From: Bacteroidia bacterium
GTDB taxonomy: Bacteria; Bacteroidota; Bacteroidia; B-17B0; Aurantibacillaceae
Length of the DNA stretch: 64,000 bases
Reading direction: 5' to 3'
NCBI GenBank assembly: GCA_016787785.1
Contig: JAEUTO010000009.1
Location: forward strand, 62,001-126,000
In this document: piece by piece, positions 28,532 through 62,528 of the stretch
Position numbering within the stretch: position 1 is the first letter of the stretch
How the letters are laid out: each line of letters opens with the position of its first letter
Made by a program: the position numbers and the translations under genes
The notes under the pieces: generated by a model
What the model was told of the DNA's origin: nothing
The model's database searches: none
What the model saw: only the letters and a program-made list of their open reading frames with translations

Positions 28532-28918
28532 TTAGGCCTTTGATGGTAAAAATGTTTTAAGCCAGTCAATAGCTTCTTCTTTGGTTGGAAAAACACGTGT
28601 TGGTACTGTAGGTTTATTGTACTTTATGTAAAAATTTGCTAGTAGTTTTTGTGCGAGGTTACAGTAAGCGATCGCATCCGCCAAGGTATACAAATTACTT
28701 TCCGCAGCAGCTGAAAATATTCTGGCTTCCTTGTCAACACTGCTAAATTCACCCGCGTCTATCAAAATTGGAAATTTTCTTCCTTTGCCCAGTTTTCCCA
28801 TCGCTTCAACAATAAATACGGCATCGGATAATTCAATTTCTTGACCTGACTTTAAATGAATATGGATAATATTATCATCAATACTCACAACTGATTTCTC
28901 TAATTCTATTGTTTCCAT
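28532..28918 (-). CDS. STAS/SpoIIAA-like small protein
   Basis: 128 residues from the ATG at 28918 (a TTG three codons earlier is less likely). The order is a beta strand, HIHLKSGQEIELSDAVFIVE, a glycine turn, RKFPILIDAGEFSSVDKEAR and a C-terminal PTRVFPTKEEAIDWLKTFL. This matches the STAS-like proteins of Bacteroidota (DUF7793-type). The ending xxFxxxEEAxxWL resembles that of the SpoIIAA-like protein at 12638. It is probably transcribed from the palindrome-controlled promoter near 29084, together with the broken lipoprotein frame between them. Confidence 0.6.
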   Translation of the reverse strand: METIELEKSVVSIDDNIIHIHLKSGQEIELSDAVFIVEAMGKLGKGRKFPILIDAGEFSSVDKEARIFSAAAESNLYTLADAIAYCNLAQKLLANFYIKYNKPTVPTRVFPTKEEAIDWLKTFLPSKA

Positions 28919-28932
28919 TACAAGCAAATTTG

Positions 28933-29076: not shown

Positions 29077-29119
29077 CAAAAATCTTGCTTAATAGTATAA
29101 TTAAAAATGATCAGCATCA
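29077..29119 (-). promoter_or_regulatory. CRP/FNR-type site with class II spacing
   Basis: The palindrome TGATCAGCATCA (29108-29119) is followed on the minus strand, 35 bp from its first base, by GATTTTTG (29084-29077), one mismatch from TAnnTTTG. It would start a transcript near 29073 that covers the broken lipoprotein frame and the STAS-like gene. Confidence 0.55.
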
Positions 29120-29154: not shown

Positions 29155-30528
29155 TTAGAAAAGGACTGACGTTTGATTTAGCTGTGGTGCAACCGCCAGC
29201 CATCCATAATTCTCCTTGATCTTCTCAATTAGTGTTTTAGCAGCTATCTTTTCACCATGCGTAATGAATATTTTTTCAGGCTTATTTTTCACCTTTGAAA
29301 GCCAATGGATAAGTTCAGATTGATCAGCATGTGCAGATAATCCTTCTATTAAAGAGATAGAGGCGTTTACCTTCCATAATTTGCCGCGCATTTTTATTTC
29401 CTTTGCGCCGTCTAATAGCGCGCGCCCTCGTGTTCCTTCTCCCTGGTAACCTGCTAGAAGAATGGTGGCTTTTGCATCTCCGATATATTTTTCAAAATAG
29501 GATAGAACCCTTCCGCCGGTAGCCATGCCACTACTAGCTATAATTATTTTTGGGGTTTTATCTCTTAGTATTTTTTCAGTTTCAACTTCGTTCTTAATTA
29601 TTCTGATTTGGCTGCATATCTCAATCGATTCAACTAATGATAGTTTATGCCATTTGAGATTTTTATGAAATACTTCTAATACATGGCTCCCCATGGGGCT
29701 ATCCATATATATAGGTATTTTTGGTATTTTTTTTTCGTTTCCAAGTTGCCATAGCAAGAACATGATTAACTGAGTTCTTTCAACGGCAAAACTTGGAATG
29801 ATAATTGTGCCCTGCTTTGATTCGGCTTTATTTATTTCATTAGCTAATAATTGCTTTGGGTCCTCTGAATGTAACCTGTTGCCATAGGTTGATTCCATAA
29901 CGATCACATCGGCTGTTTCCGGATAGTCAGTTTCGTACATCAATGGATCGTTGATCCTACCGATGTCGCCGGAAAAGACAATAGTTTTATTTTTTATTTT
30001 TAATTCGATGAAACAGGCGCCAAGTATATGACCATTATATTTAAATTGGAACGAAACATCATTAGTTATCTCAATTGGTATTTTTAATGGCTTACTTTCA
30101 AAAAACGGGAAAACAGCTTCGGCCTCTTTGGTATCATAAAGCGGTTTTGCCGGTTTGTGTTTACTGTAATTGTTGCGATTCGCTCTTTCTGCATCTTCTT
30201 CTTGAATTTTTGCACTATCGAGCAAAATTAGTTTTGTTATTTCTACCGTAGGTTCGGTTGCAAATATTTTTCCGTTAAAGCCTTGTTTTATTAGTAAGGG
30301 CAAATAACCAACATGATCTAAGTGCCCGTGTGTTAAGATCACAAGGTCAATAGAAGAAACATCTACCGGTAACACATTCCAGTTAAGAAGTCTCAAGTCT
30401 TTAAGGCCTTGAAACAATCCACAATCTATTAAGATGTTTTTTGTTGGCGTTTTTAATAAATACTTTGATCCGGTTACAGTGCCGGCAGCGCCAAGAAAAG
30501 TGAGACTGGTTTGTTGTTCTTTGTTCAT
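29155..30528 (-). CDS. MBL-fold beta-CASP metallo-hydrolase (RNA-processing type)
   Basis: 457 residues. The N-terminal metallo-beta-lactamase part has GAAGTVTGSKYLL and HGHLDHVG (near 66-73). The beta-CASP part has SFAVERTQLIMFLL and SSGMATGGRV. The C-terminal RMMBL region has GLSAHADQSELIHWL and a final metal His in ITHGE. This matches YSH1/CPSF73-like bacterial proteins thought to act as RNases. It is cytosolic, without a signal. It lies 100 bp after the ATP-cone nuclease gene on the same strand and is probably in the same transcript. The substrate here is not known. Confidence 0.9.
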   Translation of the reverse strand: MNKEQQTSLTFLGAAGTVTGSKYLLKTPTKNILIDCGLFQGLKDLRLLNWNVLPVDVSSIDLVILTHGHLDHVGYLPLLIKQGFNGKIFATEPTVEITKLILLDSAKIQEEDAERANRNNYSKHKPAKPLYDTKEAEAVFPFFESKPLKIPIEITNDVSFQFKYNGHILGACFIELKIKNKTIVFSGDIGRINDPLMYETDYPETADVIVMESTYGNRLHSEDPKQLLANEINKAESKQGTIIIPSFAVERTQLIMFLLWQLGNEKKIPKIPIYMDSPMGSHVLEVFHKNLKWHKLSLVESIEICSQIRIIKNEVETEKILRDKTPKIIIASSGMATGGRVLSYFEKYIGDAKATILLAGYQGEGTRGRALLDGAKEIKMRGKLWKVNASISLIEGLSAHADQSELIHWLSKVKNKPEKIFITHGEKIAAKTLIEKIKENYGWLAVAPQLNQTSVLF

Positions 30529-30628
30529 TTAGCTAGATATTTTTTAATACTAATTTTGTTTTCGGTATTGCTAAATTCAGTTTTCCACCAAACATTTTTC
30601 AACCGCACGTGTTTCTTCTACAATAATG

Positions 30629-31513
30629 CTAATGTTCATTTATTATGCTGTTTTTTGTTTCTTTTTCTTTGAACAGATGGGCGCATAATTGCTCGGCCTC
30701 TTTCATTACCGTATAAATTCGTGATTGCTTTATGCCGCTGGCTTCGAGTAGCTTTTTATTATTATATATCTCTTTGCACAGAACGATCTTTTTTTCAAGT
30801 AAACGTCCTTTCTCGGCTTTGGTGAGCGATGTTAAACAGGTAATAGGATATAAACCCAACGTGTCAATTTGTTCGCGCAAACTACCTTTTACCGGATAGT
30901 CCCATCCGATTAAATTTAAACCCACACATTTCCCATACTGTACCGCGTCTATAGAAAATTTTGTATTTGTAAAAACCCAACCCTGATAAAACCTGGTTAC
31001 ATGGGCTGCCATTTTTATCCATTGGGCTTCTACATCTTTAAATCTTGATTGTATATAAAGAGGAATTTTTACATCACAAAATATGCCGGGTAAATTATGA
31101 TATTTACATTCAATCATATAACAATGATCTCCTTTTTCCGCGATCACATCTATTTCATGCGTTACACATTGCCCCTGAACTATTTCTCCAACTTTAGTTT
31201 GGTATCCCTGATATTTTAAGATCTCGGCAACATATTTTTCGAAGGGATAACCTGAGGGGCCAAGTTCCATTAGTGCTTGTTTTAAATGATAACGTGCTGC
31301 CAGGTGCCGTGAACTTTCCTTTAAAAGTGTAAAAGCTAGTTTGTAAATTTCTTTTGTTGAGATGCCTTCAAATATTTTGTTACCAACTTCTTTTGTGATA
31401 AATTTAATTTGTTCTTCCGAGGCTCCTGCACGTTGCAGCGACATTCTTAGTTTTTTTTCAGAAAACTGAGTTTTCTCTCCGGAAGCTTTTGTTACAAGTA
31501 AGTTTGTGTACAT
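30629..31513 (-). CDS. ATP-cone domain fused to an Mrr-like restriction endonuclease fold
   Basis: 294 residues from ATG 31513; the GTG at 31540 would overlap the predicted -7 box and is rejected. An ATP-cone (about 1-90: VTKASGEKTQFSEKKLRMSL, then a helical region with ARYHLKQALMELGP) is followed by a PD-(D/E)XK nuclease core (about 92-190) with HEIDVIAEKG and MIECKYHN; Asp122, Glu135 and Lys137 are the likely catalytic set. ATP-cones sense ATP/dATP in ribonucleotide reductases, so nuclease action may depend on nucleotide state. A C-terminal helical tail (about 230-285) is of unknown role. No methylase is nearby, so it is not a standard restriction system. Confidence 0.85.
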   Translation of the reverse strand: MYTNLLVTKASGEKTQFSEKKLRMSLQRAGASEEQIKFITKEVGNKIFEGISTKEIYKLAFTLLKESSRHLAARYHLKQALMELGPSGYPFEKYVAEILKYQGYQTKVGEIVQGQCVTHEIDVIAEKGDHCYMIECKYHNLPGIFCDVKIPLYIQSRFKDVEAQWIKMAAHVTRFYQGWVFTNTKFSIDAVQYGKCVGLNLIGWDYPVKGSLREQIDTLGLYPITCLTSLTKAEKGRLLEKKIVLCKEIYNNKKLLEASGIKQSRIYTVMKEAEQLCAHLFKEKETKNSIINEH

Positions 31514-31524
31514 ATTATTTTCTT

Positions 31525-31589
31525 TAAAAGTAGGCTTCACTCCGGCGGCATCTTATGACGGCAATTAGAGTAGATACTGATCTATATCA
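31525..31589 (-). promoter_or_regulatory. CRP/FNR-type site with class I spacing, ATP-cone nuclease promoter
   Basis: TGATCTATATCA (31578-31589) stands exactly 57 bp upstream on the minus strand of TACTTTTA (31532-31525), one mismatch from TAnnTTTG. The ATG follows at 31513. The palindrome overlaps the 3' end of the TauE-like gene, so the nuclease gene has its own regulated promoter. Confidence 0.65.
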
Positions 31590-32322
31590 TATTTCGGATT
31601 TGGTTACCTAATGTTACCAATCCAACAAGTAGAATAAGAAAAAGTACAATAGATTTGAACTGCTCTTGCGAAAATCGTTTTAATATTTTTTTGCCAACAT
31701 AGGTGCCTACAATAGCAACAACAAGTAAAATGGGTACCAAATAAAGATCGTGTTTATGCATGTAACCATTTGAAAAATAAACCACACTTCTGCTTAGATC
31801 TATACCTAGGTCGATAATTGCGGAGGTAGCTATAAAGATTTCCTTTTTAAGATTAAAAGCTGCAAGCGTTAATCCCCTTATTGCGCCGCCTGAACCTAAA
31901 AGACCCGCCGTTATTCCAGAGAAAGCGCCGCCACTTATGGAATTAAACAACGTGGGCTTTAATTTTAGGTTTTTAAAGATCAATAAAATAACACTTATTG
32001 CAATAAGGAATATAGCAAGAAATATTTCCAGTAATTTGCTGTCGAAATATTGCGTCAAAAATGCGCCTACTATTACGAATAGTACAGCGGGTATTCCAAT
32101 AGTAATGATGAGTTTTTTGTCGAAACCAGTTCTGAAAAGTGCGATCTTTGAAATATTACTTGACAAATGAAATAAGGCGGTAATACCTAATACTGAGTGG
32201 AAATCGAAAAAAAAGCCCGCAATAGGCACAAAAAAAAGTGACGATCCGAAACCGCCAACGGTTCCAATAACTTCTGCTAAAAGAGCAAGGATTGCAAATA
32301 ATAATAAAGTTTCAATTTCCAT
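31582..32322 (-). CDS. TauE/SafE-family membrane permease
   Basis: 246 residues, about eight hydrophobic helices. The start LFAILALLAEVIGTVGGFGSS and the internal repeat GGAFSGITAGLLGSGGAIRG are the two inverted repeats typical of TauE/SafE (sulfite or organosulfonate exporter) proteins. It presumably moves a small anion across the inner membrane. It ends 40 bp before the ATP-cone gene and starts 28 bp after the DUF998 gene, consistent with one long transcript from the 36.2-kb promoter. Confidence 0.85.
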   Translation of the reverse strand: MEIETLLLFAILALLAEVIGTVGGFGSSLFFVPIAGFFFDFHSVLGITALFHLSSNISKIALFRTGFDKKLIITIGIPAVLFVIVGAFLTQYFDSKLLEIFLAIFLIAISVILLIFKNLKLKPTLFNSISGGAFSGITAGLLGSGGAIRGLTLAAFNLKKEIFIATSAIIDLGIDLSRSVVYFSNGYMHKHDLYLVPILLVVAIVGTYVGKKILKRFSQEQFKSIVLFLILLVGLVTLGNQIRNMI

Positions 32323-36217: not shown

Positions 36218-36282
36218 CAAAAATAACTGCTGCACCTGATCATAGTAATGACAGAACTCAACTAAAAAAATGATCTTTGTCA
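36218..36282 (-). promoter_or_regulatory. CRP/FNR-type site with class I spacing, mla operon promoter
   Basis: TGATCTTTGTCA (36271-36282) is exactly 57 bp upstream, on the minus strand, of a perfect TATTTTTG (36225-36218). It should control the 65-residue protein, mlaEFD and the genes beyond. Confidence 0.75.
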
Positions 36283-37919: not shown

Positions 37920-38309
37920 TCACCTATCATTATCAATTTTAACCGGCACTTTACTCAGCGATTCACCCTGACTGTTTTGTTCATCTAATGTCCAGCCATC
38001 CGTAACGGTAGTTTCTAACCACACCTTACCTGATTTTCTAAAGACCTGGACGCCCAAGCCGTATACATCTCCAAAATTTTGCTCAAGATCCGAAACAGTC
38101 ATATTAGGCGTGATGGTAATTTTTCCTTTATTATGAATTGTCCGGCATTCCCCTAACGTTTTGCTGTTATGCTTTATTTGTTTTTTCGGTGATCCGCCAC
38201 CTGCGGTGTGCGGCTTCGCAAAGAATTCAAGTTTAAGATAAGGGAATAATTTGCTGAATTCTTCCTGAATTGCAAATATCTTTCTGCTGTCGTTTATGGT
38301 TATTTTCAT
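37920..38309 (-). CDS. Conserved protein of unknown function
   Basis: 129 residues, soluble, no signal peptide. The sequence includes RKIFAIQEEFSKLFPYLKLE, a Gly/Ser-rich turn (HTAGGGSPKKQ), ITPNMTVSDLEQNFGDVYGL and GVQVFRKSGKVWLETTVTDG. It looks like a compact alpha/beta fold. I do not recognise a named family. Its position between two stress genes (Usp and Hsp20) on the same strand suggests a role in the same stress response. Confidence 0.6.
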   Translation of the reverse strand: MKITINDSRKIFAIQEEFSKLFPYLKLEFFAKPHTAGGGSPKKQIKHNSKTLGECRTIHNKGKITITPNMTVSDLEQNFGDVYGLGVQVFRKSGKVWLETTVTDGWTLDEQNSQGESLSKVPVKIDNDR

Positions 38310-39991: not shown

Positions 39992-40056
39992 CAAAAATAG
40001 AGAGGTTAGAATGGGTAAAGAATGAGGGAGGTCAGGAGTGATTATGACCTTTATCA
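39992..40056 (-). promoter_or_regulatory. CRP/FNR-type site with class I spacing, DoxX-Usp-Hsp20 operon
   Basis: TGACCTTTATCA (40045-40056) lies exactly 57 bp upstream, on the minus strand, of a perfect TATTTTTG (39999-39992). The first gene starts at 39966. Confidence 0.75.
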
Positions 40057-41111: not shown

Positions 41112-41417
41112 TTATTTCTTAGTGCGAAGTTTTTCGAGTATAGCCGTGCTCATGGTATCGGTAGATGTGCCATAACCGGTTACCAATACCCCTTTTAAAC
41201 CCGATTTGGATTCAATGGCATATACCGTTGCTTCGTCAGCAGGATCAGTATTGCCTTCATATCGATAAACGTCAACAAGTTCAAACTCTTCCGGCAAAAA
41301 TTTTTCAGGGTGACAAACAATGCAATTTTCCTCTAAATTAAAATCAGTTGTGTATCCTTTTTTTCTCAGTTCATTAATTGCTTCTGATACGGTTGCATAG
41401 TGATTTTCTCGTTCCAT
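41112..41417 (-). CDS. Conserved small protein, unknown
   Basis: 101 residues, soluble. The start YATVSEAINELRKKGYTTDF, followed by NLEENCIVCHPEKFLPEEFE and VDVYRYEGNTDPADEATVYA, recurs in a Bacteroidota family of about 100 residues that is sometimes misnamed phosphoribosylpyrophosphate synthetase. A CIVCH motif could bind a metal or a thiol ligand. The gene starts one base after the response regulator and so is probably part of the kinase-regulator operon. Confidence 0.6.
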   Translation of the reverse strand: MERENHYATVSEAINELRKKGYTTDFNLEENCIVCHPEKFLPEEFELVDVYRYEGNTDPADEATVYAIESKSGLKGVLVTGYGTSTDTMSTAILEKLRTKK

Positions 41418-41418
41418 G

Positions 41419-42477
41419 TTAATTTTTTAAGTTAATTAACTTATCATAATTGAGGATAGAGATCGTACTTCCCGATATTTCAATTAATTTTTCTTCTTTA
41501 AAATCGCTCAATGTACGAATAACAGTCTCGGTAGCAGTTCCAACAATATTAGCAAGATCTTCCCTCGAAACATTCATACTAAATTTAATATCGGTTTCTT
41601 TTTTATATTTATCCGATAGTTTTACCAGAGCTTCTGCCACTCTTTTTCTAACCGAATTGTATGCAAGTTTTACGAGTTGTTTTTCTTTCTCCAATAAACT
41701 ATTGGATAATATCTCAATAAATTTCTTTGACACTTCCGCGTTTCTGTAGATCAATGAAAAGAAATCCTCTTTAGGTAACATATATATATCACAATCCTCA
41801 AGAGCAGTGGCTGAACTTGTATATTTTTCGTCTTTAAGTAAAGATAGATGGCCAAAAAAATCTCCTTCTTTATATAACTCAGTAATTAGTTCTTTTCCAG
41901 ATTCGCTTGCCTGAACAAGTTTTACTTTTCCTTTACTTATAAAATATATTCCTTTTGGAATGCCGCCTTCTTTATAAATATCATCTTTCTTTTTATAAGC
42001 TCTAATTTCCCTTTCTTCAGAAAGTTTTTTAAGAGAGTCTATTCCTTTGGCTTGATTAATAAAATCATTAATGCCTGCCATATTTTTTGTAAATTCTTTC
42101 TTAAGTATCTCGGTTTTCTTTAAACGACTTTCTATTGCATTTAGAAGTTCAACTTCATCAAAAGGTTTTGTCAAATAATCATCAGCCCCCATTTCCATCC
42201 CTTTTCTAAAGTCGCTTCTTTCAGCTTTTGCTGTTAAAAAGATAAAAGGAATACTTGCTGTTTCTTCGTTTTTGGAAAGTAGATGCAATGCACCGTGCCC
42301 ATCTAACACAGGCATCATAATATCACAAATAATAAGGTCAGGTTTTTCTTTTTGAGCCAGTTCTACACCTTCTTTGCCGTCTTTGGCAGTAACAACGTTA
42401 TACTGGGCCAAGCCCAATATCTCTGCGGTATTTTCCCGCACATCCTTGTTGTCTTCTATTAAAAGAATTTTTTTCAT
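41419..42477 (-). CDS. Hybrid response regulator: receiver plus CRP/FNR-type DNA-binding domains
   Basis: 352 residues. The receiver (1-120) has Asp9, phospho-Asp52 (IICDIMMP), Thr82 and Lys104. A linker helix leads to a cyclic-nucleotide-fold effector domain (about 145-255: GGIPKGIYFISKGKVKLV, GDFFGHLSLL) and an HTH_Crp domain (about 275-350) with recognition helix TATETVIRTLSDFKEE. Glu317 and Arg321 match the Glu and Arg with which CRP and FNR read TGA half-sites. There is no N-terminal Cys cluster as in FNR, so oxygen is not sensed by an iron-sulfur centre here; phosphorylation by the adjacent PAS kinase is the likely input. It is the best candidate binder of the ten TGAYnnnnRTCA sites. 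Confidence 0.88.
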   Translation of the reverse strand: MKKILLIEDNKDVRENTAEILGLAQYNVVTAKDGKEGVELAQKEKPDLIICDIMMPVLDGHGALHLLSKNEETASIPFIFLTAKAERSDFRKGMEMGADDYLTKPFDEVELLNAIESRLKKTEILKKEFTKNMAGINDFINQAKGIDSLKKLSEEREIRAYKKKDDIYKEGGIPKGIYFISKGKVKLVQASESGKELITELYKEGDFFGHLSLLKDEKYTSSATALEDCDIYMLPKEDFFSLIYRNAEVSKKFIEILSNSLLEKEKQLVKLAYNSVRKRVAEALVKLSDKYKKETDIKFSMNVSREDLANIVGTATETVIRTLSDFKEEKLIEISGSTISILNYDKLINLKN

Positions 42478-42479
42478 TT

Positions 42480-43658
42480 TTATTGCTGTATTATTATGGT
42501 AAAAGTTGTTCCTTTATTTTCAATACTCTCAAAATCTAACGAGCCATTCATTAATTCAACATATTTGGCAACTATATTTAACCCCAAACCGGTACCTTGA
42601 ATGTGTGTTGCATTATGTCCTCTAAAAAAACGTTCAAATAAATGTTTTTGATCTTCTTTTGAAATGCCGATACCATTATCTTTTACTGAAATTTTAACCG
42701 AAGTATCCGAGGCTTCTGAAGTTATTTCAACCAGGCCTGCTTCAGGTGTGAATTTGAGCGCATTTGAAATAAGATTGAACATCACATTTTTGATTAATTT
42801 TTTATCAAGTGAAGTAATGTCTAAGCCTGCATGTGTGTAAGTAATTTTTTGGCCATTAGTTGCCATAGTATACATTTCGGTAATAATATCTGCTATAAAT
42901 GCTTTCAAATTTAATTCTTCCGGCATATTCTCAATCTTCCCTTCTTCAAGTTTGCTTATAGAAAGGAAATCGTTAAGGATATCTGTTAGATTATTTATAG
43001 AGGTTTTTATTTTACCAACATGTTTATTGTGATTTTCTTTATCGTTATTGTCCCTATATTTAGATACCAATGATAAAGACGACATCATGGTGGTGAGAGG
43101 GGTTCTGAATTCGTGGGAGGCCATAGAAACAAAGCGTGATTTTAACTCATTTAACTGCCTTTCTTTATCAAGAGCATTGTGCAGTTCTTTTTTGGTTTGT
43201 TGTAATTCCTGCACGGCCTCTTCTAAAATAAGCGTTCTATTGTTAACCTGCTTTTCTAACTCAACCGAATAATTTTTTAATCGTTCTTCGGCTTGTTTAC
43301 GTAAAGTAATGTCTATAATAAAAGCTACAACAAATTTTCCTTCATTCGTTGTATAAGGGCTTAAACTAATTTCTACAGGCATTTCGGTGCCGTCTTTTTT
43401 TAACCCAAAAAGATCCATTCCACTACCCATAGATCGTGGATGTGGGTTTTGGTTGTATGTTTCTCTGTGTTCTGTGTGTTTTGAAAATCGTTTCGGGATC
43501 AATATTTCAACGGTTTTTCCTATCAGTTCTTTTTCTGTATAACCAAAGAGTTTTAGCGCGCTCGGATTTACGCGTAAAATTTCGCCTTTTTCATTTGTTA
43601 TGAATATACCTTCTGTGGCATACAAAAAAAGAGCGTCGATGCCTTCCTTACTTTCCAT
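42480..43658 (-). CDS. PAS-domain sensor histidine kinase
   Basis: 392 residues from ATG 43658 (a TTG at 43682 would add eight residues). A single PAS domain (about 8-120: FLYATEGIFITNEKGEILRV, FGYTEKELIGKTVEIL, KKDGTEMPVEISLSPYTTNE) leads through a coiled coil (125-175) to a HisKA domain with SHEFRTPLTTMMSS and an HATPase_c with N-box NLISNALKF, DNGIGISKED and GTGLGLNI. There are no membrane helices, so it is a soluble sensor. It is two bases upstream of the hybrid regulator and should phosphorylate it. The ligand of the PAS domain cannot be read from the sequence. Confidence 0.9.
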   Translation of the reverse strand: MESKEGIDALFLYATEGIFITNEKGEILRVNPSALKLFGYTEKELIGKTVEILIPKRFSKHTEHRETYNQNPHPRSMGSGMDLFGLKKDGTEMPVEISLSPYTTNEGKFVVAFIIDITLRKQAEERLKNYSVELEKQVNNRTLILEEAVQELQQTKKELHNALDKERQLNELKSRFVSMASHEFRTPLTTMMSSLSLVSKYRDNNDKENHNKHVGKIKTSINNLTDILNDFLSISKLEEGKIENMPEELNLKAFIADIITEMYTMATNGQKITYTHAGLDITSLDKKLIKNVMFNLISNALKFTPEAGLVEITSEASDTSVKISVKDNGIGISKEDQKHLFERFFRGHNATHIQGTGLGLNIVAKYVELMNGSLDFESIENKGTTFTIIIQQ

Positions 43659-43705
43659 CCTGGTTCCTATTGAATTTTTCAAGGTAAATTTAGCTATTTA
43701 TAATG

Positions 43706-43801
43706 TAAATGTAAAAAGCCGGGTTTTAAGCGAACATGACCAATGTCATATCCTGTTCTGACGCTACTCAGAGGGCTTTCTGACCATTTTACCGACTTTT
43801 G
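43706..43801. promoter_or_regulatory. Shared CRP/FNR-type site for two divergent promoters
   Basis: TGACCAATGTCA (43737-43748) lies 35 bp from TACATTTA on the minus strand (43713-43706), which leads to the kinase-regulator operon. It is also 57 bp from GACTTTTG on the plus strand (43794-43801), which leads to the gene at 43827. Each box has one mismatch to TAnnTTTG. One site would thus act in class II and class I positions at once and could let the regulator control its own operon. Confidence 0.65.
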
Positions 43802-44634: not shown

Positions 44635-44677
44635 TGACCAAGGTCATTTTCAAAGGCTTTAATTTTTTTTAATTTAG
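44635..44677 (+). promoter_or_regulatory. CRP/FNR-type site with class II spacing
   Basis: TGACCAAGGTCA (44635-44646), with five matching bases in each arm, is 35 bp upstream of TAATTTAG (44670-44677), one mismatch from TAnnTTTG. The ATG at 44681 follows three bases later, so the mRNA would be nearly leaderless. Confidence 0.6.
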
Positions 44678-45034: not shown

Positions 45035-45077
45035 TGACCGTAGTCATTTGATACGAAAAGTACAGATAGTTAATTTG
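45035..45077 (+). promoter_or_regulatory. CRP/FNR-type site with class II spacing
   Basis: TGACCGTAGTCA (45035-45046) is 35 bp upstream of TTAATTTG (45070-45077), one mismatch from TAnnTTTG. The ATG follows at 45091. Confidence 0.6.
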
Positions 45078-45090
45078 TGCCAATAAATAA

Positions 45091-46086
45091 ATGATGAAAC
45101 TAAGCGAACTAGACAAGATAAATTATTTCAACATTTTTTTGATGTTGATGAGTTGCGTTGTAGCAATTGTTATGCCCTTTGAATTATTTTTATTTGCTTA
45201 TGCTATTTTAGGCCCACTTCATTATTTAACGGAAATTAGCTGGCTACACGACAGGCAGTATTATTCGAAAGGAAAATATGACGGATGGTTTTTTTTACTA
45301 TTAGGCATTTTAATTGCTCTGCCGGTAATAGCACCTTTATTAAATCTAAAAAGCAACACCAGTGGAAACGATATAAATCATTATATCTACCTGGCTGTTG
45401 TGGGTGGTTTATTATTTGCTTTAACCAAAAATGTGTATTTCCGAATAGTTGGTTTATTATTAGCTTTTCTTAGTTTTCGTATCGCCGATAATTTCTTTTT
45501 ATTTTTTTCGGTCTTTCTTCCAACGCTAATACATGTTTTTGTTTTTACAGCGTTATTTGTGCTCTACGGTGCGTTAAAAACAAAAAGTAGAAGTGGTTAT
45601 ATCTCTTTTGCAGTAATGTTGGCATGCCCGGTTATTTTATTTCTTGTTCTTCCGGGGCAAACTGACAGACTGTTTTCAGATTATAGCTTAAGGTCATACA
45701 GCAATTTCGAGGCCATTAATTTTTATTCTCTAAAATATCTATTTAATATCGAAATAGCCAAGGATAATATGATCGAAAATATTTATTTTTCTAGAACTGG
45801 CATCCTCCTTATGCGCTTCATAGCATTCGCATACACGTACCACTATCTCAATTGGTTTTCCAAAACAAACGTTATTAAATGGCATAAAGTTCCAAAAGCA
45901 CGCCTTGTAGTCATTACTGCACTTTGGATCACTTCAATTTCTCTCTATGTATATGACTACAAAATTGGTTTTAGCTGTTTGTTTTTGCTTAGTTTCTTGC
46001 ATGTACTTCTGGAGTTACCTTTAAATGTGGTTTCAATAAGGGGGATTTTTCAGGAAAGTGTATTGTTGTTGAAAAAAAATAACTGA
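45091..46086 (+). CDS. His-rich polytopic membrane protein, unknown
   Basis: 331 residues (329 or 330 if the second ATG is used), about nine to ten transmembrane helices. Histidines recur at the membrane: GPLHYLTEISWLHDRQYY near residue 45-62, LIHVFVF, YHYLNWFSKTNVIKWHK and SFLHVLLELPLN near the end. Repeated intramembrane His-x pairs suggest metal or haem ligation. A loose likeness to Brp/Blh-type carotenoid oxygenases is too weak to use. It lies between regulated promoters and just before the P-type ATPase, whose operator overlaps its stop codon. Confidence 0.6.
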   Translation: MMKLSELDKINYFNIFLMLMSCVVAIVMPFELFLFAYAILGPLHYLTEISWLHDRQYYSKGKYDGWFFLLLGILIALPVIAPLLNLKSNTSGNDINHYIYLAVVGGLLFALTKNVYFRIVGLLLAFLSFRIADNFFLFFSVFLPTLIHVFVFTALFVLYGALKTKSRSGYISFAVMLACPVILFLVLPGQTDRLFSDYSLRSYSNFEAINFYSLKYLFNIEIAKDNMIENIYFSRTGILLMRFIAFAYTYHYLNWFSKTNVIKWHKVPKARLVVITALWITSISLYVYDYKIGFSCLFLLSFLHVLLELPLNVVSIRGIFQESVLLLKKNN

Positions 46087-46148
46087 TTTATATCATCTTA
46101 CTCTCAAATCTAGGTCATGTTTGGCTTTTGTAGAAGTCTTTAGTTTTG
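46084..46148 (+). promoter_or_regulatory. CRP/FNR-type site with class I spacing, CcoI-type ATPase promoter
   Basis: TGATTTATATCA (46084-46095) is exactly 57 bp upstream of a perfect TAGTTTTG (46141-46148). A -33 TTG at 46121-46123 gives a 17-base gap. The TGA of the operator is also the stop codon of the preceding gene. Confidence 0.8.
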
Positions 46149-46154
46149 TCAACC

Positions 46155-48584
46155 ATGGAAAAGGAAATAAAAAGCAAAACTATTTGTTACCATTGTGGAG
46201 AATCTTGTGATGATGAGATCATTCATATTGAACACAAATATTTTTGTTGCCAGGGTTGTAAAACCGTTTATGAAATTTTGAATAAAGTAGAATTATGTAA
46301 TTACTATTCTATCGAGGCTCATCCGGGGCAGAAGCAAAAAACGCAGATGCGTAATGATAAATTTGCTTTTTTAGACGATGAACAAATTCAACTAAAGCTT
46401 ATTCATTTCAAAGATGCACATCAAAGTCATGTGACCTTTTATCTACCTCAAATGCATTGCAGTTCGTGCATTTGGCTGTTGGAGAATTTAACGAAACTTG
46501 ATAAAAACATTGTTCGCTCGCAAGTAAATTTTTTAAAGAAAGAGGTCAGTGTAGTATTTGATCATAAAAATACGTCGATAAGAAAAGTTGCTGAAATTCT
46601 TACTTTGATTGGTTATGAACCACATTTGAGTTTAAATGACATTTCAGAAAAAAAGATAAGAAAGTATGATAAAAGCCGGATCTATAAGATAGGAATCGTA
46701 GGATTTTGTTTTGGTAATATTATGCTCCTAAGCTTTCCAGAATATTTTTCGCTTGGCAAAGTAGAGGAGAAAGGGCTAAAACTATTATTCTCTTATTTAA
46801 TATTATTTTTATCACTTCCGGTTTTTTTTTATGGAGCATCAGAGTTTTTTACATCGGCATGGAAAAGTATCCGGCAAAAATTCCTCAATATTGATGCGCC
46901 TATAGCGCTGGCCATACTTATTACATTTGGGCGGAGCGTTTATGAAATAGTAACAGATACTGGCGCCGGGTATCTGGATTCTATGACGGGTATTGTGTTT
47001 TTTATGTTGCTTGGTCGGTTTTTTCAAAATAAGACATACAACACCTTATCATTTAATCGCGATTATACTTCTTATTTCCCCTTAAGTGTTTCTCTGATTC
47101 TGGAGAGTGGCGAGGAAAAACAAATACCTGTTTCAGAGCTAAAAACTGGTCAGCGTATAAAGATAAGAAGTGAAGAGATCATTCCAGCTGATTGCATACT
47201 TTTTTTTGGTAAAGCAAAGATCGATTACAGTTTCGTTTCAGGCGAGTCGCTACCCATCGAAAAAAATATTGGAGAGATCATTTACGCCGGTGGTAAACAA
47301 TTAGGTGGCGCTATTGAGATGGAAGTTGTTAAAGATGTCTCTCAAAGTTACCTTACTCAGCTTTGGAACAACGACGCTTTTCAAAAAAACGAGGAAAAAA
47401 GTACGTCATTCATTCACAGTACAAGTAAATATTTTACAATTGTTTTGTTTAGCATTGCCTTGCTAACCGGCATTTATTGGTATTTAAATGATGTTTCTCA
47501 TTTTTGGAATTCTATTACTTCTATTTTGATCGTGGCATGCCCCTGCGCACTGTTATTATCGTCAACTTTTACAAATGGTAATATGTTGCGTGTACTTCAA
47601 AAATTTGGTTTCTACGCACGAAATGCGAATGTAATTGAACAGGTTGCGCTATCTGATGCAATTGTTTTTGATAAGACAGGCACTATCACTAGGCAAGAAC
47701 GATCTACGTTTATTTATGAGGGTGTGAAATTAAGTTTCGAGCAAGAACAAATAGTTAGGTCTCTGGCGAGCCAATCCAGTCATCCTTTTAGTAAAGCTGT
47801 AATGCAAGCATTGCCTGCTTCTAAAATACTTGCGGTAAAAGCGTTTAAAGTAAGGCCTGGATTTGGTATCGAAGGTGATGTTCTGGGGAACCAAGTTATT
47901 ATTGGATCTGCAGTTTATGTCGAAGAAGAGAAGAGGATCGATCAGGAAAATGGAAGTAAAGTTTACATAAAAATTAATGGCGATGTACTTGGCAGTTTTA
48001 CTATAAAAGCTAAATATAGAAACGGCTTAACAACAGTATTTAGATCTTTAAAAAAACGCTACCAACTTTCGCTGCTTTCGGGCGATAATGATGCCGAGCA
48101 AAATAATTTGAAAGATAATTTTAATTCCGGACTATTATTCGATCAATCGCCCCAACAAAAACTTGAGTATATAAGAAATTTGCAGGATAAGGGGCGTAAG
48201 GTCATTATGGTTGGCGATGGTTTGAACGATGCGGGAGCTTTGCAACAAAGCAATGTTGGCATAGCTATTACCGATAATGTAAATAATTTTTCACCTGCCT
48301 GCGACGTAATTATGAGCGGAAAAAGTTTTAGTTATTTTGATCTGCTACTAAGTTATTGTAAATATAATAAGGTAATTATCAATTTAAGTTTCATTATATC
48401 CATTTTGTATAATATAGTTGGTCTGTATTTCGCGGTGCAGGATAGACTTCAACCAGTAATTGCAGCGATATTAATGCCCGTGAGCTCTGTTACCATTGTT
48501 TTATTTACTACCGGAATGAGTTCGCTATTGGCTTATAAGCTCAAAAAATTCGGATCAAAAACGACGAATGAGAATAATAACTGA
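46155..48584 (+). CDS. ccoI: Copper-type P-type ATPase for cbb3 oxidase assembly (CcoI/FixI-like)
   Basis: 809 residues from ATG 46155. The N-terminal metal-binding module is Cys-rich (CYHCGESC, KYFCCQGCKTVYEI) and is followed by a heavy-metal-associated domain (MHCSSCIWLLENL). The ATPase core has the transport motif IVACPCALLLS, the phosphorylation site DKTGTI, SQSSHPFSKA and GDGLNDAGAL. This architecture is typical of CcoI/FixI (CtpA-like) exporters that supply copper to the CcoN active site of cbb3 oxidase in the periplasm. It lies directly before ccoS and is separately controlled by a class I palindrome. Confidence 0.92.
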   Translation: MEKEIKSKTICYHCGESCDDEIIHIEHKYFCCQGCKTVYEILNKVELCNYYSIEAHPGQKQKTQMRNDKFAFLDDEQIQLKLIHFKDAHQSHVTFYLPQMHCSSCIWLLENLTKLDKNIVRSQVNFLKKEVSVVFDHKNTSIRKVAEILTLIGYEPHLSLNDISEKKIRKYDKSRIYKIGIVGFCFGNIMLLSFPEYFSLGKVEEKGLKLLFSYLILFLSLPVFFYGASEFFTSAWKSIRQKFLNIDAPIALAILITFGRSVYEIVTDTGAGYLDSMTGIVFFMLLGRFFQNKTYNTLSFNRDYTSYFPLSVSLILESGEEKQIPVSELKTGQRIKIRSEEIIPADCILFFGKAKIDYSFVSGESLPIEKNIGEIIYAGGKQLGGAIEMEVVKDVSQSYLTQLWNNDAFQKNEEKSTSFIHSTSKYFTIVLFSIALLTGIYWYLNDVSHFWNSITSILIVACPCALLLSSTFTNGNMLRVLQKFGFYARNANVIEQVALSDAIVFDKTGTITRQERSTFIYEGVKLSFEQEQIVRSLASQSSHPFSKAVMQALPASKILAVKAFKVRPGFGIEGDVLGNQVIIGSAVYVEEEKRIDQENGSKVYIKINGDVLGSFTIKAKYRNGLTTVFRSLKKRYQLSLLSGDNDAEQNNLKDNFNSGLLFDQSPQQKLEYIRNLQDKGRKVIMVGDGLNDAGALQQSNVGIAITDNVNNFSPACDVIMSGKSFSYFDLLLSYCKYNKVIINLSFIISILYNIVGLYFAVQDRLQPVIAAILMPVSSVTIVLFTTGMSSLLAYKLKKFGSKTTNENNN

Positions 48585-48646
48585 TATATATCATATTACA
48601 ACTTGATTATCCTCATTCTTCGACTGACGCAACTAAAATACCTTTG
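48582..48646 (+). promoter_or_regulatory. CRP/FNR-type site with class I spacing, cco operon promoter
   Basis: TGATATATATCA (48582-48593), a full match to the FNR half-sites TGAT and ATCA, is exactly 57 bp upstream of a perfect TACCTTTG (48639-48646). The ccoS ATG is at 48661. This promoter should drive the whole nine-gene operon to hemN. Confidence 0.82.
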
Positions 48647-58267: not shown

Positions 58268-58332
58268 TGATGAATGTCATTGCTGTCAATGATTGGCCTC
58301 ATAAGTAAAAGCTAAATCATTTAAGAATTTTG
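58268..58332 (+). promoter_or_regulatory. CRP/FNR-type site with class I spacing, terB-usp operon
   Basis: TGATGAATGTCA (58268-58279) is exactly 57 bp upstream of GAATTTTG (58325-58332), one mismatch from TAnnTTTG. A second palindrome TCATTG-CTGT-CAATGA overlaps it at 58277-58292. The ATG at 58360 follows. Confidence 0.6.
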
Positions 58333-59790: not shown

Positions 59791-60888
59791 TTATTTAATT
59801 ACGTGTGCTATTTCCTGTAATTTTTCATCAACGTATTTAGCGGGAGAATCGTTTATCAATAACCCTAAATTTAATTGTTCAAGACGTTTAACATTCCATT
59901 CCTGCTCAAAATGACTCGTTATGCAAAGCATAAATATATTGTGTTTTAGTCCTTCATAAATAGTACCGTTGCCTCCATGACAGATCATAAATGAGCAAGT
60001 GGGTAAGATCTCGTTTAGATTAATAAAATCTTTATGGTATATATGGGCGCCTGTTAATGTGCGATTAATATCACCAGCAACAATAATGTTTACAAAAGCA
60101 TATTTTTGTTCTGATAAAAAATTAAGATTTTCCCATGTGCCACTGCTACCAAGGCAAACACAAATATTATGTTTTTTTGGATCTAAAGTGTTTAATAATT
60201 CATCTTCTTTTAAATTGGTTGAATAGAGTAAAGGTCCTATGATCTTATAATTTTGGGGTAGACCTTTTTGGGGAAATAAAAACATTTCATCGCAGATAAG
60301 ATTTTCGTCGCCTTCGAGTTCACTTAAATAATCATGTATCACTCTTAGTCCGTATTTTTTTCTGAGTGATCGAAATGGTTTATGTACGACCTTAAACGAA
60401 GCAGCTTCTGCGAACTTTGTTATAAAATTACCAATTCGCGGGGGCAATTTATTTACATATTCATAACTATAATGGGTTCTTGAAACCGGCCTAACGCCAT
60501 CATAATATTTTGACATATATCCGTTCATTAAACAAATATATTTGATGCCTGCCATCTCCGCAGCCATTTTTAAACTCGGTGCAGTATCGCCAATAACAAG
60601 ATAAGGTTTATAGTCTTTTAACGCATTAATCTGTGATAAAAACACCTTTTCTATTTCAGCATAATTTAACCAGGAGAAATCAAATTTAATAATGCACTTC
60701 ATCACTTCCTCCGCATTAAAAGTTTCTACCTTAAAAGAGCCATATCCTGCTTTTTTTACAAACGGATCGTATTTTTCCGAATAAGCAAATAATATCTCAT
60801 GATCATTATATTGCTTTGCAAGGGCTATGCAGCGCAGGTAGTGCGACATAAGATCAAATGGAAATATTAGAATCCTTTTTTTAAACAT
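59791..60888 (-). CDS. Glycosyltransferase, likely carotenoid (CrtX-like)
   Basis: 365 residues from ATG 60888 (MFKKRILIFP), chosen because it overlaps the cyclase gene by eight bases; a longer frame to 60915 would overlap more. The fold is GT-B: a C-terminal nucleotide-sugar site has LGSSGTWENLNFL and ICHGGNGTIYEGLKHN near 320-335, as in UDP-glucuronosyl/glucosyl transferases. Being last in the crt operon suggests that it adds a sugar to a hydroxylated carotenoid such as zeaxanthin. The exact acceptor is inference. Confidence 0.75.
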   Translation of the reverse strand: MFKKRILIFPFDLMSHYLRCIALAKQYNDHEILFAYSEKYDPFVKKAGYGSFKVETFNAEEVMKCIIKFDFSWLNYAEIEKVFLSQINALKDYKPYLVIGDTAPSLKMAAEMAGIKYICLMNGYMSKYYDGVRPVSRTHYSYEYVNKLPPRIGNFITKFAEAASFKVVHKPFRSLRKKYGLRVIHDYLSELEGDENLICDEMFLFPQKGLPQNYKIIGPLLYSTNLKEDELLNTLDPKKHNICVCLGSSGTWENLNFLSEQKYAFVNIIVAGDINRTLTGAHIYHKDFINLNEILPTCSFMICHGGNGTIYEGLKHNIFMLCITSHFEQEWNVKRLEQLNLGLLINDSPAKYVDEKLQEIAHVIK

Positions 60889-61567
60889 GCTTCTTTCTAA
60901 AGCTTTCAAATACAAAAGTATTTAGCAGTAATAACAACATGCCATAAAAGACATCTTCAACAGGGATAGTTAACATTCGTATTCCGAGGTTTTCCTGATC
61001 ATTATACCATACTATCGGGGAGTCAAGTCCTGTGCCAGTTAAAATACCATTTACAATAAAAAAAGGTAATAATATAACAACATACATAAAATAAAAGGCT
61101 GAGATCCATTTTACCCTGGCTATCGAAAAACCGGATATTACTACGGCAAGTGTAATGCATGTAACACTTGTATATATTTTTGAAATATTAAAAATGCCAA
61201 CAACAAGCAGCAAGGCCACTAAGAAAACTGAAATTGTGCTAACACTAAAAGACAATATTTTTGGATAGAATAATTTGAAGCAGTGATATGTAAAAATGCT
61301 GGCGTAGGGTATACAAATAAAAAATAACACTTCTTCGATGGGCAGATTAAATAGTTTGGATCCTATTAGGTAATGATCATTAAAACCCCATACACCTATT
61401 TTTGTGTACGTAATGTCCCATATCAGGAATAGAACGGTTATAATTAAATTAGCCGGCAAGAAAGCACGCCATTCTTTATAAAATTTTATTTTAGGATGAA
61501 AGCTAAAAAGAAAGGGAACTATAAATGCTCCCAAGTCAATAAAAAGATATGTTAAATTAGCTGGCAT
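60881..61567 (-). CDS. crtYcd: Lycopene cyclase (CrtYcd-type, fused halves)
   Basis: 228 residues, about seven helices. Two homologous halves each have a P-(I/V)-E-(E/D)-V motif: PIEEVLFFICIPYASIFTYH near 76 and PVEDVFYGMLLLLLNTFVFE near 195. This is the fused heterodimer-type membrane lycopene cyclase of Bacteroidota and actinobacteria, producing beta-carotene. It overlaps crtZ by 11 bases. Confidence 0.88.
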   Translation of the reverse strand: MPANLTYLFIDLGAFIVPFLFSFHPKIKFYKEWRAFLPANLIITVLFLIWDITYTKIGVWGFNDHYLIGSKLFNLPIEEVLFFICIPYASIFTYHCFKLFYPKILSFSVSTISVFLVALLLVVGIFNISKIYTSVTCITLAVVISGFSIARVKWISAFYFMYVVILLPFFIVNGILTGTGLDSPIVWYNDQENLGIRMLTIPVEDVFYGMLLLLLNTFVFESFRKKHV

Positions 61568-62024
61568 TTCTCCGAACTTCTTTAAAATATTTTAAGGGTG
61601 CCCAAAGCATACCAAAGCATTCGCCATCCTCTTTTCCTAAGTGTTTATGATGAACTTTATGCGCTTTTCTTATCGCTCTAAAATAAGTTGCGTTCGCATT
61701 CCGCAGTACTTTTATACGTTGATGAATAAATAGATCGTGAATAAAAAAATAAGCGGCGCCATAAAGCGTAATGCCAATGGCCATCCAAAATGGTACGGAA
61801 AAATCATCGTAGCCAATAGCAAAACAAATAATAGCAGGCGTGGCAAATATGATAAAAAAAGAATCGTTCCTCTCTAATTTAGCATTTGCATTCGGTTGAT
61901 GATGGTCTTTATGCAGGCTCCATAACAAGCCATGCATAATGTATTTGTGCGCTAGCCAAGCCACGCCTTCCATTCCAACAAATGAAATAATTATTATTAT
62001 AATATTTACGATCCAATTTGCCAT
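61557..62024 (-). CDS. crtZ: Beta-carotene hydroxylase
   Basis: 155 residues, four helices. Fatty acid hydroxylase His clusters are HKYIMHGLLWSLHKDHHQ, HDLFIHQR and HKVHHKHLGKEDGECFG, the CrtZ di-iron ligands. It hydroxylates the ionone rings to zeaxanthin using oxygen. It directly follows the 167-residue gene (no gap). Confidence 0.93.
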   Translation of the reverse strand: MANWIVNIIIIIISFVGMEGVAWLAHKYIMHGLLWSLHKDHHQPNANAKLERNDSFFIIFATPAIICFAIGYDDFSVPFWMAIGITLYGAAYFFIHDLFIHQRIKVLRNANATYFRAIRKAHKVHHKHLGKEDGECFGMLWAPLKYFKEVRRNAS

Positions 62025-62528
62025 TTAACTAAATATCTTTTTTTCTTCTTTTGAGCAGGATTTTGAACTCAACATGTATTCTTTTATGCGGTTTTTTAGA
62101 TCCAGATCTTCCAGGTTATTATAACCGGTAATAATAACTTTTTTATCTTCCGATATTTTTCCTCTGTATCCAAGGAAAGCAGGGGCATTTGTCTGTACGC
62201 AAAAGCGGAGGAAACACAATTCAACATTTTTTGGATCATTTTCAATCGCAGCATCTAGTAGATCTTTGCCTTTAATAAAATAACTTAACTTATAGTAAGG
62301 ATTAAAATCAAAATTTGCCTTGATCATGTAAGACATGCCTTTATAGCCTTCAGAGAGTGAGCGCTCGATCTTTAAGTTAGCTTGCATCATTTTATAAAAT
62401 GTTTCCGCATCTGCCCTATTGGTAGACGCTTTGTAGTATAATTCTCTAATCTTTACTATGTCAGTATTCGCAGCTACCGTTGACAATGGTACTAAGAGAA
62501 AAAGAATAAATTTAAGTAAAATTCTCAT
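62025..62528 (-). CDS. Secreted helical protein of unknown function in the carotenoid operon
   Basis: 167 residues from ATG 62528 (four-base overlap with crtB stop region). A signal peptide (about 1-20, ending TVAAN) is followed by helical repeats (IVKIRELYYKASTNRADAET, FYKMMQANLKIERSLSEGYK), a tetratricopeptide-like pattern including GKDLLDAAIENDPKNVELCF. It has two conserved Cys near the middle (LCFLRFC). I do not recognise a family. It should act in the periplasm while its neighbours are cytosolic or membrane carotenoid enzymes; it may help to place carotenoids in the envelope. That is inference. Confidence 0.7.
   Translation of the reverse strand: MRILLKFILFLLVPLSTVAANTDIVKIRELYYKASTNRADAETFYKMMQANLKIERSLSEGYKGMSYMIKANFDFNPYYKLSYFIKGKDLLDAAIENDPKNVELCFLRFCVQTNAPAFLGYRGKISEDKKVIITGYNNLEDLDLKNRIKEYMLSSKSCSKEEKKIFS

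Follow-up and report, generated by a model that had tools for sequence, protein, structure and literature searches.

ATP-cones act as the overall-activity switch of ribonucleotide reductases, as described in passages of PMC5794259. Another way of putting a nucleotide-binding domain in front of an enzyme is seen in the CARF-PD-(D/E)XK nucleases, and the first protein of the gene pair that we describe here has the same arrangement (by a weak match), with an ATP-cone in place of CARF. Its ligand is presumably ATP or dATP, not cyclic oligoadenylate. The nuclease core and C-terminal domain of this protein align with AF1548 (PDB 1Y88) across residues 103–285 (7e-36), which leaves out the cone: AF1548, which we take to be from Archaeoglobus fulgidus, is a 199-residue chain with no ATP-cone in the match, and the PDB labels it "hypothetical protein." The second protein of the pair shares MBL, beta-CASP, and RMMBL domains with RNase TTHA0252 (PDB 2DKF) and the CPSF73/Ysh1/Cas14 beta-CASP family, and residues 12–427 align. 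Unlike the members of that family, it has a cone nuclease as a partner and lies in an apparent low-oxygen island.

The bll3117-bll3116-bll3115 genes of Bradyrhizobium diazoefficiens encode an MBL hydrolase, an AMP-phosphorylase-like protein, and a PRPP synthetase (PMC6515984), and this MBL hydrolase is likely a distant counterpart of our RNase. The published data show low-oxygen, FixK2-dependent expression of this operon: at 0.5% O2, the MBL protein was up by 2.9 (log2) and its transcript was up 15.4-fold (PMC6515984, Table 2), with a change of -30.6-fold in a fixK2 mutant (PMC9104804). As evidence on the other side, PMC6515984 gives bll3115-3117 a "-" both in the soybean bacteroid data and in the 2008 direct FixK2 regulon. 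The features that our locus would share with this operon are the MBL hydrolase, control by the CRP/FNR family, and induction at low oxygen. As listed, the Bradyrhizobium operon has no cone nuclease, and its genes appear in the tables of those passages with no function given.

The window is the whole 64-kb stretch of DNA that we analyzed, and its ORF list places both genes of the pair on the minus strand (Table 1). The nuclease gene could start at an ATG (31513) or at a GTG (31540, which gives a 303-aa ORF), and we prefer the ATG because the relatives start there. In the 303-aa ORF, Pfam identifies an ATP-cone (29.3 bits, cutoff 25.8), Mrr_cat (24.3 bits, cutoff 21), and AF1548-like_C (27.5 bits, cutoff 23.9). 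The last of these (PF22357) has one match in the window's genome and none in 14 control genomes.

Table 1. Features of the window: position, strand, and the evidence for each.
Feature	Position	Strand	Evidence
DUF7793 protein, next gene downstream of the pair, with its own palindrome	28532..28927	-	PF25056 1e-29
Palindrome, same as before the pair, upstream of the DUF7793 gene	29108..29119		motif scan
Predicted MBL-fold beta-CASP RNase with RMMBL domain, TTHA0252/CPSF73 type	29155..30528	-	Pfam, PDB matches
Predicted nuclease: ATP-cone, Mrr-type PD-(D/E)XK, AF1548-like C-terminal domain	30629..31513	-	Pfam, PDB match, start from relatives
AF1548-like C-terminal domain	30686..30850	-	PF22357, residues 231-285
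Mrr_cat PD-(D/E)XK catalytic domain	30929..31255	-	PF04471, residues 96-204
ATP-cone domain	31289..31498	-	PF03477, residues 15-84 of the 303-aa ORF
CRP/FNR-type palindrome TGATCTATATCA upstream of the pair, overlapping the TauE-like stop codon	31578..31589		motif scan
TauE/SafE-like membrane protein, directly upstream of the pair	31582..32322	-	PF01925 1e-30
TGAYN4RTCA site upstream of MlaE gene	36271..36282		site scan; MlaE and MlaD domains
TGAYN4RTCA site between DoxX gene and divergent gene	40045..40056		site scan; DoxX domain
Receiver, cNMP-binding, and Crp-type HTH protein; candidate palindrome regulator	41419..42477	-	Pfam
PAS histidine kinase beside the candidate regulator	42480..43682	-	Pfam
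TGAYN4RTCA site upstream of PAS histidine kinase gene	43737..43748		site scan
TGAYN4RTCA site before ORF at 44681	44635..44646		site scan
TGAYN4RTCA site before ORF at 45091	45035..45046		site scan
Palindrome upstream of heavy-metal P-type ATPase gene (CcoI-like by position)	46084..46095		site scan; ATPase match
Palindrome upstream of cbb3 oxidase gene (COX1-FixO fusion)	48582..48593		site scan; domains
TGAYN4RTCA site before ORF at 58330	58268..58279		site scan

To examine functional residues, we used an alignment of 32 proteins (29 from the 40 loci that we read in detail, the window's, and two from plasmids). E91, D121, E134, and K136 of the nuclease domain (alignment A1 numbering) are invariant (32/32), and by sequence the putative nuclease has the D...(E/Q)xK catalytic motif of Mrr and PD-(D/E)XK nucleases. 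In the cone, conservation is 90% or higher at K8, G11, K20, and T52 and complete at Y74 and K77; these K, G, T, and Y/K positions presumably match the residues that contact nucleotide in the cones of ribonucleotide reductases. We did not use a predicted structure of the nuclease (from a 2-row alignment) because its mean pLDDT of 40 was too poor. Among the matches listed from the open-licence PMC literature that we searched, none was a study of this cone nuclease.

The other gene of the pair is a 457-aa ORF with Lactamase_B, Beta-Casp, and RMMBL domains (Pfam), and its PDB matches include Cas14 (2e-65) and RNase TTHA0252 (5e-61). Its translation contains THGHLDH, which is the HxHxDH motif of MBL proteins. 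Given this motif, its domains, and the alignment to TTHA0252, the protein is predicted to be an RNase of the TTHA0252/CPSF type. It does not appear to be a type VII Cas14, as it scores 360 bits and the NCBIfam equivalog cutoff is 800.

The pair recurs. Of 77 nuclease loci in 395 Bacteroidota genomes (window included), 43, from five families, have the RNase gene immediately 3' of the nuclease gene and in the same orientation. These 43 account for 43 of the 61 RNase matches with E below about 1e-106 (the list ended at about 1e-107), and all but one of the 44 best matches are among them, although that limit was chosen after seeing where adjacency ends (both counts include the window). The other 34 nuclease loci lack an adjacent RNase, with contig ends uncorrected. 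From the list of nucleases we excluded a second fragment in each of G440 and G279, matches to the cone alone in G207, G306, G342, and G404, and a weak match in G397. The sequence-only reading of this DNA had paired an ATP-cone nuclease with a beta-CASP enzyme behind a palindrome, and it would have been undermined if the neighborhood were not conserved; both enzymes are present as claimed, by the Pfam domains of the two ORFs, and the pair is a conserved unit.

The nuclease is present in 73 of the 395 Bacteroidota genomes (it was not found in the other 322 that were sampled) and in 18 of 60 genomes, counts that take in the window's own genome, and it is also on two plasmids. A single-sequence scan of the genome contigs with the nuclease gave one locus. 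RNase homologs at E ≤ 1e-60 are in 236/395 Bacteroidota genomes, mostly without the nuclease, and two RNase homologs on plasmids (40–41% identity) sit outside the triplet.

We also considered if the four large second cone ORFs (G207, G306, G342, and G404) might be fusions of a cone to an RNase. We rejected this for L068, which is a cone-glycoamylase fusion (Pfam); L069, another of the four, matches the same glucoamylase family.

The palindrome that precedes the pair is one of a local set of CRP/FNR-type sites. TGATN4ATCA occurs four times in the window versus 1.9 times expected from shuffles, which is weak alone (12 of 100 shuffles reached four). The broader pattern TGAYN4RTCA, which we picked after seeing the window's sites, occurs 10 times, and all 10 sites are non-coding (at most 8 of 12 bases coding; 9 of the 10 have at most 6), even though just 7.5% of the window is non-coding. 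The whole genome has 194 such sites (versus 180 for the reversed control pattern), so 2.7 would be expected per 64 kb. By the same rule, ten other 20-kb stretches of this genome (200 kb) contain 9 sites, of which 1 is non-coding. Across 41 loci, including the window, the density of sites is 7.29 per 10 kb of non-coding DNA versus 0.98 for coding DNA. The palindromes are confined to promoter regions, as expected of a CRP/FNR-type regulon. The T-flanked form of FNR sites is not clearly the motif here, as the narrower TTGATN4ATCA exceeds its reversed control by only a modest margin across the genome (40/43 versus 26/28).

At 11 of the 41 loci, a TGAYN4RTCA site lies in the gaps of, or upstream of, the same-strand run of genes leading to the nuclease, versus 1, 0, 2, 1, and 0 loci for five control palindromes; the other 30 loci have no site in this run. 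Few loci have a palindrome right in front of the nuclease (1 or 2 of 41; for TGAYN4RTCA within 300 bp, 2), so we dropped it as evidence. As in the window, L002 and L052 have a site at the end of the TauE gene that lies upstream of the nuclease, and L002 also has a site before its DUF7793 homolog; in L050, another gene intervenes and there is no site at the end of the TauE gene. The candidate regulator is adjacent to a PAS kinase, and we considered a possible resemblance of this kinase to the heme sensor FixL. Of the oxygen-type control that the sequence-only reading proposed, what stands is CRP/FNR-type control, as judged from sequence, together with the low-oxygen data for the RNase's likely counterpart in Bradyrhizobium.

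The respiration and stress genes that had been proposed as neighbors are real: domain matches identify a COX1-FixO fusion, Usp, and Hsp20 in the window. Near the nuclease in 40 other loci, we found Usp (16 loci), receiver-CRP proteins (9), PAS kinases (8), GAPDH (6), and D-2-hydroxyacid dehydrogenase (4). These 40 loci were hand-picked for spread from the nuclease matches, not at random, and the counts are approximate because we took the longest ORFs as genes (as we also did when sorting palindromes into coding and non-coding) and formed neighbor families by single-linkage clustering. One or more of eight such markers turned up in 23 of the 40 loci, versus none of ten control stretches, which came from the window's genome alone and not from the 40 other genomes; 17 of the 40 had none of the eight. 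By eye, we saw no methylase gene, no toxin-antitoxin gene, and no restriction context around the nuclease in the window's ORF lists, which agrees with the earlier claim that such context is missing, with the qualification that short antitoxins could escape notice because these lists were cut at 80–100 aa.

The sequence-only reading also knew of no assigned function for the pair. This needs qualification, as the neighbors of the RNase family elsewhere point to nucleotide breakdown or salvage. The gene order nuclease, RNase, AMP-phosphorylase-like, PRPP synthetase is found on plasmids of Pontibacter and Criblamydia and also in G254 (where a short ORF separates the first two genes) and G309 (with an extra ORF before the PRPP synthetase), for four lineages in total. 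More broadly, neighbors of the RNase in other lineages include AMP-phosphorylase-like proteins, PRPP synthetase, phosphoketolase, and acetate kinase, and proteobacterial gene sets combine the RNase with nucleotide enzymes without the nuclease. The phosphorylase beside the pair scores below the equivalog cutoff for AMP phosphorylase. The one from Pontibacter matches PDB 4GA4-4GA6, which is named "putative thymidine phosphorylase" there and which we take to be AMP phosphorylase. Unlike in the archaeal AMP-phosphorylase pathway, which includes an isomerase and RuBisCO, the partner in these bacterial loci is a PRPP synthetase.

In the window's own genome (G000), AMP phosphorylase has no matches; TIGR02645 is above its cutoff in 2 of the 395 Bacteroidota genomes, with a partial match of 368 bits in G061. 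Phosphoketolase and acetate kinase also have no matches in the window's genome (4 and 9 of 14 control genomes were positive, respectively). A small-subfamily PRPP synthetase was not found above the cutoff there, and no control genome passed either. Therefore, a full route from RNA to ATP is unsupported in this genome.

The gene neighborhood looks as if it is switched on at low oxygen or low energy, which suggests regulated breakdown of nucleic acids under stress. We give roughly an even chance that the pair is a cone-gated, low-oxygen-induced unit for degrading nucleic acids. The two genes would be transcribed together and would belong to a CRP/FNR-type regulon responsive to a shortage of oxygen or energy. 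The first protein would be a nuclease that is gated by the adenylate or deoxyadenylate state via its ATP-cone, and the second would cleave and trim RNA. When respiration fails, the pair would degrade nucleic acid, most likely RNA, and nucleotides and ribose phosphate would be recovered. In some lineages, the products may pass to the AMP-phosphorylase-like enzyme and then to the PRPP-synthetase-like enzyme encoded next door. The computation itself shows the domains, the conservation of catalytic residues, the recurrence of the pair, and the restriction of the palindromes to promoters; that the genes are co-transcribed, that the nuclease is active and gated by its cone, what it cuts, and what purpose this serves are inferences. 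The earlier interpretation, in which the pair degrades nucleic acid or arrests growth at low oxygen, is partly supported. A more specific proposal, which we consider rather doubtful, is that RNA serves as an emergency fuel: as oxygen and ATP fall, the cone-gated nuclease and the RNase would digest cellular RNA to nucleotides, and lineages that have AMP phosphorylase, PRPP synthetase, phosphoketolase, and acetate kinase too, a set found on the Criblamydia plasmid, would ferment the ribose to make ATP. The pair in Bacteroidota would then supply the first steps of this route, and some lineages, the window's among them, would have kept it without the rest.

Alternatively, the pair might be a growth-arrest module that makes cuts in specific RNAs (or DNA), so that cells stop growing and turn dormant when oxygen is low, without any catabolic purpose. 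In favor of this, the window's unit is just two nucleases near Usp and Hsp20, with the downstream catabolic enzymes unmatched in the genome. But four lineages have genes for AMP-phosphorylase-like and PRPP synthetase proteins after the pair, proteobacterial sets have the RNase with nucleotide enzymes and no nuclease, and the annotated clusters of recurring neighbors include no antitoxin, so we view growth arrest as doubtful. If instead the RNase were a mere transcriptional neighbor, the nuclease might repair or recycle DNA when the oxygen-dependent ribonucleotide reductase fails to supply dNTPs. The Mrr fold usually acts on DNA, and the ATP-cone is the overall-activity switch of ribonucleotide reductases. 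The recurring linkage to the RNase (43/77 loci) and the lack of any repair gene among the annotated neighbor clusters make this improbable.

We think it quite improbable that the cone nuclease functions in defense, as a nucleotide-sensing effector against phages or plasmids or as a type IV restriction enzyme. It has the Mrr_cat domain, its distribution is patchy, and it occurs on plasmids; also, a scan of four window proteins with the PADLOC defense library gave weak partial hits only, including matches of residues 96–149 to CARF-PDDEXK nucleases (3e-6). On the other hand, we found no match to the nuclease in 50,697 phage records, the neighbors are genes for respiration, fermentation, and stress (the annotated clusters are not defense genes), the control appears from sequence to be of CRP/FNR type, and the linked RNase has a likely counterpart that is induced by microoxia.

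If the pair is indeed a cone-gated unit for degrading nucleic acids, then placing a nuclease under the kind of ATP/dATP-sensing domain that ribonucleotide reductases have would tie the breakdown of nucleic acids directly to the energy state of the cell. A gene pair that recurs but has apparently escaped study would gain a suggested function, and there would be a possible explanation for the named MBL hydrolase that Bradyrhizobium induces in microoxia. This view would also make testable the question of how bacteria manage their RNA once respiration stops.

The nuclease contains ATP-cone, Mrr_cat, and AF1548-like_C domains, all three of which exceed the Pfam cutoffs. Among solved structures, the one closest to it in sequence is AF1548 (PDB 1Y88; 7e-36, residues 103-285). 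This match takes in the nuclease and C-terminal parts of the protein, and the cone lies outside it. In an alignment of 32 nucleases (from the window, 29 of the 40 fetched loci, and two plasmids), the residues of the PD-(D/E)XK site (E91, D121, E134, and K136) are invariant, and the lysine/glycine/threonine pattern of the cone is conserved. The RNase aligns with TTHA0252 and with CPSF-type enzymes along most of its length. It also matches the type VII Cas14 model, with a score far under the cutoff. Therefore, we do not name the protein Cas14.

Features of the window and of two loci from other genomes
Feature	Location	Strand	Remarks
beta-CASP RNase gene	29155-30528	minus	100 bp downstream of the nuclease gene
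Cone nuclease gene	30629-31513	minus	first gene of the pair
DUF7793 gene	28532-28927; L002:7484-7867		preceded by its own CRP/FNR-type palindrome in the window and in L002
129-aa ORF (cluster c11)	37920-38309		between Hsp20 and Usp genes; no Pfam or NCBIfam match; homologs in 4/40 other loci
Small protein of ~100 aa (cluster c28)	41112-41417		adjoins the receiver-CRP regulator; no Pfam match; 3 members in 3/41 loci, one in L070
Apparent carotenoid genes	59791-63918		resemble a pathway cluster, judged by eye; phytoene synthase-, cyclase-, hydroxylase-, and glycosyltransferase-like
ATP-cone fused to glycoamylase domain	L068:9851-11386		genome G207; 511 aa; PF03477 + PF10091

Counting the window's genome each time, we found the nuclease in 73 of 395 Bacteroidota genomes and 18 of 60 close relatives. 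The sequence-only reading had suggested testing whether the two families co-occur, and their pairing is conserved: at 43 of the 77 nuclease loci kept from the 395-genome search, the RNase lies directly 3' on the same strand (spacing of -10 to 331 bp), and these pairs are spread over five families (f1, f22, f26, f27, and f45). Conversely, 43 of the 61 RNase matches with E < ~1e-106 sit directly 3' of the nuclease, and 43 of the top 44 adjoin it, with a cut that was set after the list was seen. The sole exception among the 44, in genome G423, has its nuclease and RNase on separate contigs. Excluding the window, these counts are 42/76, 42/60, and 42/43. Weaker homologs of the RNase are widespread (E ≤ 1e-60 in 236/395 genomes). 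Because 34 of the 77 loci have a nuclease without an adjoining RNase (a raw count that includes contig ends), the link is strong yet not obligatory. At locus L002, whose nuclease is 86–88% identical to the window's, the gene order is TauE-like, small ORF, nuclease, cation efflux protein, RNase, and D-2-hydroxyacid dehydrogenase; starting with the nuclease, neighboring genes overlap.

The window contains ten sites with the pattern TGAYN4RTCA, which we take to be the core of CRP/FNR-type sites and which we picked after inspecting the window's own sites. All ten include at most 8 coding bases, and nine include at most 6; the non-coding share of the window is 7.5%. Seven control palindromes of the same form have 17 sites in total in the window, 6 of them non-coding. 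The whole genome has 194 TGAYN4RTCA sites, and the reversed pattern occurs 180 times. At this genome-wide density the window should contain 2.7 sites, and ten other 20-kb stretches have 9 sites, with 1 non-coding. By these counts, the window is rich in sites that keep to promoter regions, and the compared stretches are not. They stand ahead of the pair, DUF7793, the PAS kinase, the heavy-metal P-type ATPase, and the cbb3 oxidase genes, among others. The palindrome that precedes the two genes shares bases with the stop codon of the TauE-like gene; loci L002 and L052 also have a site at the end of this gene (with different central bases in L052), and L050 has none there.

Across 41 nuclease loci (including the window), there are 7.29 sites per 10 kb of non-coding sequence vs. 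0.98 in coding sequence. At 11 of the 41, a site lies either between the genes of the same-strand run that leads up to the nuclease or ahead of that run, and several of these stand some kilobases from it; the same search found no site at the other 30 loci. Five control palindromes gave 0–2 of 41. Judging from sequence, the receiver-CRP protein and the PAS kinase encoded in the window are candidate regulators of the palindromes; their homologs are near 9/40 and 8/40 of the other nuclease copies, respectively.

Among the 40 loci from other genomes, recurring neighbors of the nuclease include universal stress proteins (Usp; 16), heavy-metal P-type ATPase (14), GAPDH (6), D-2-hydroxyacid dehydrogenase (4), and PFK, Hsp20, and cbb3 oxidase (3 each). 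At least one of eight low-oxygen/energy markers, which do not include the P-type ATPase, is found at 23 of the 40, and the same rule gave 0/10 for control stretches of the window's genome. At L068, the cone-glycoamylase ORF is just 3' of the nuclease, and a glutaredoxin-like ORF (scoring below cutoff) separates the two; here, in a similar neighborhood, the cone is borne by a second enzyme unrelated to the nuclease. Second cone ORFs likewise adjoin the nuclease in G306, G342, and G404.

On plasmids of Pontibacter actiniarum and Criblamydia sequanensis, the nuclease and RNase are followed by a "thymidine phosphorylase family protein" and a ribose-phosphate pyrophosphokinase (PRPP synthetase), all in a row. 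The Criblamydia plasmid additionally encodes phosphoketolase, acetate kinase, and glucan phosphorylase. Both phosphorylases pass NCBIfam general cutoffs and miss the AMP-phosphorylase equivalog cutoff of 535 bits (480 and 507 bits); the Pontibacter protein matches PDB 4GA4-4GA6, presumably AMP phosphorylase. The same set is present in genomes G254, where a short ORF separates nuclease and RNase, and G309, with an extra ORF ahead of the PRPP synthetase. The RNase-phosphorylase pair is also common on plasmids without the cone nuclease. Among the matches listed (40 of 159 phosphorylase records and 50 of 269 RNase records), at least 22 plasmid records, including these two, have both genes, less than 100 bp apart in 21 of the 22; in the remaining record, they lie on either side of the origin. 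All four proteobacterial regions that we read contain RNase, phosphorylase, and PRPP synthetase genes, and the PRPP synthetase is directly next in three; in Ciceribacter, it is upstream, ahead of a large gene whose annotation names a xylulose-5-phosphate enzyme. Heavy-metal P-type ATPase genes are near these genes on all four proteobacterial plasmids (L092-L095). Two RNase homologs (40–41% identity) lie outside such sets.

Published data on a likely counterpart support low-oxygen control. Table 2 of PMC6515984 lists bll3115-3117 of Bradyrhizobium diazoefficiens as MBL fold metallo-hydrolase, ribose-phosphate pyrophosphokinase, and thymidine phosphorylase family protein. Going by name and gene order, bll3115 is likely the counterpart of the window's RNase. 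At 0.5% O2, that table gives protein log2 increases of 2.9, 4.4, and 2.1 and transcript increases of 15.4-, 7.7-, and 5.1-fold, respectively. The rows for these genes in PMC6515984 are marked "-" for soybean bacteroids and for direct FixK2 targets. According to PMC9104804, bll3115 and bll3117 are down 30.6-fold and 6.6-fold in a fixK2 mutant, and a site ATGATCTGGGTCAA at -74 is given; the phosphoketolase-acetate kinase operon bll2518-bll2517 likewise falls in the mutant (-10.0 and -10.2).

Most likely, the pair is induced at low oxygen, and we predict that it degrades nucleic acid and is gated by the adenylate state via the cone. The component parts are known, and as far as we found, the combination is apparently undescribed: among the matches listed from the open-licence literature, there was no study of the cone nuclease or of its pairing with the RNase. 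What is new is the sensor and the partner of a presumably nucleotide-gated PD-(D/E)XK nuclease. A wider reading is that RNA is digested when oxygen and ATP are low and that its ribose is fermented to make ATP, via AMP phosphorylase, phosphoketolase, and acetate kinase. For our organism, whose genome has an estimated completeness of 100%, the strongest argument against this is that none of these three enzymes has a match there. Therefore, the pair would serve recycling, controlled decay, or arrest here.
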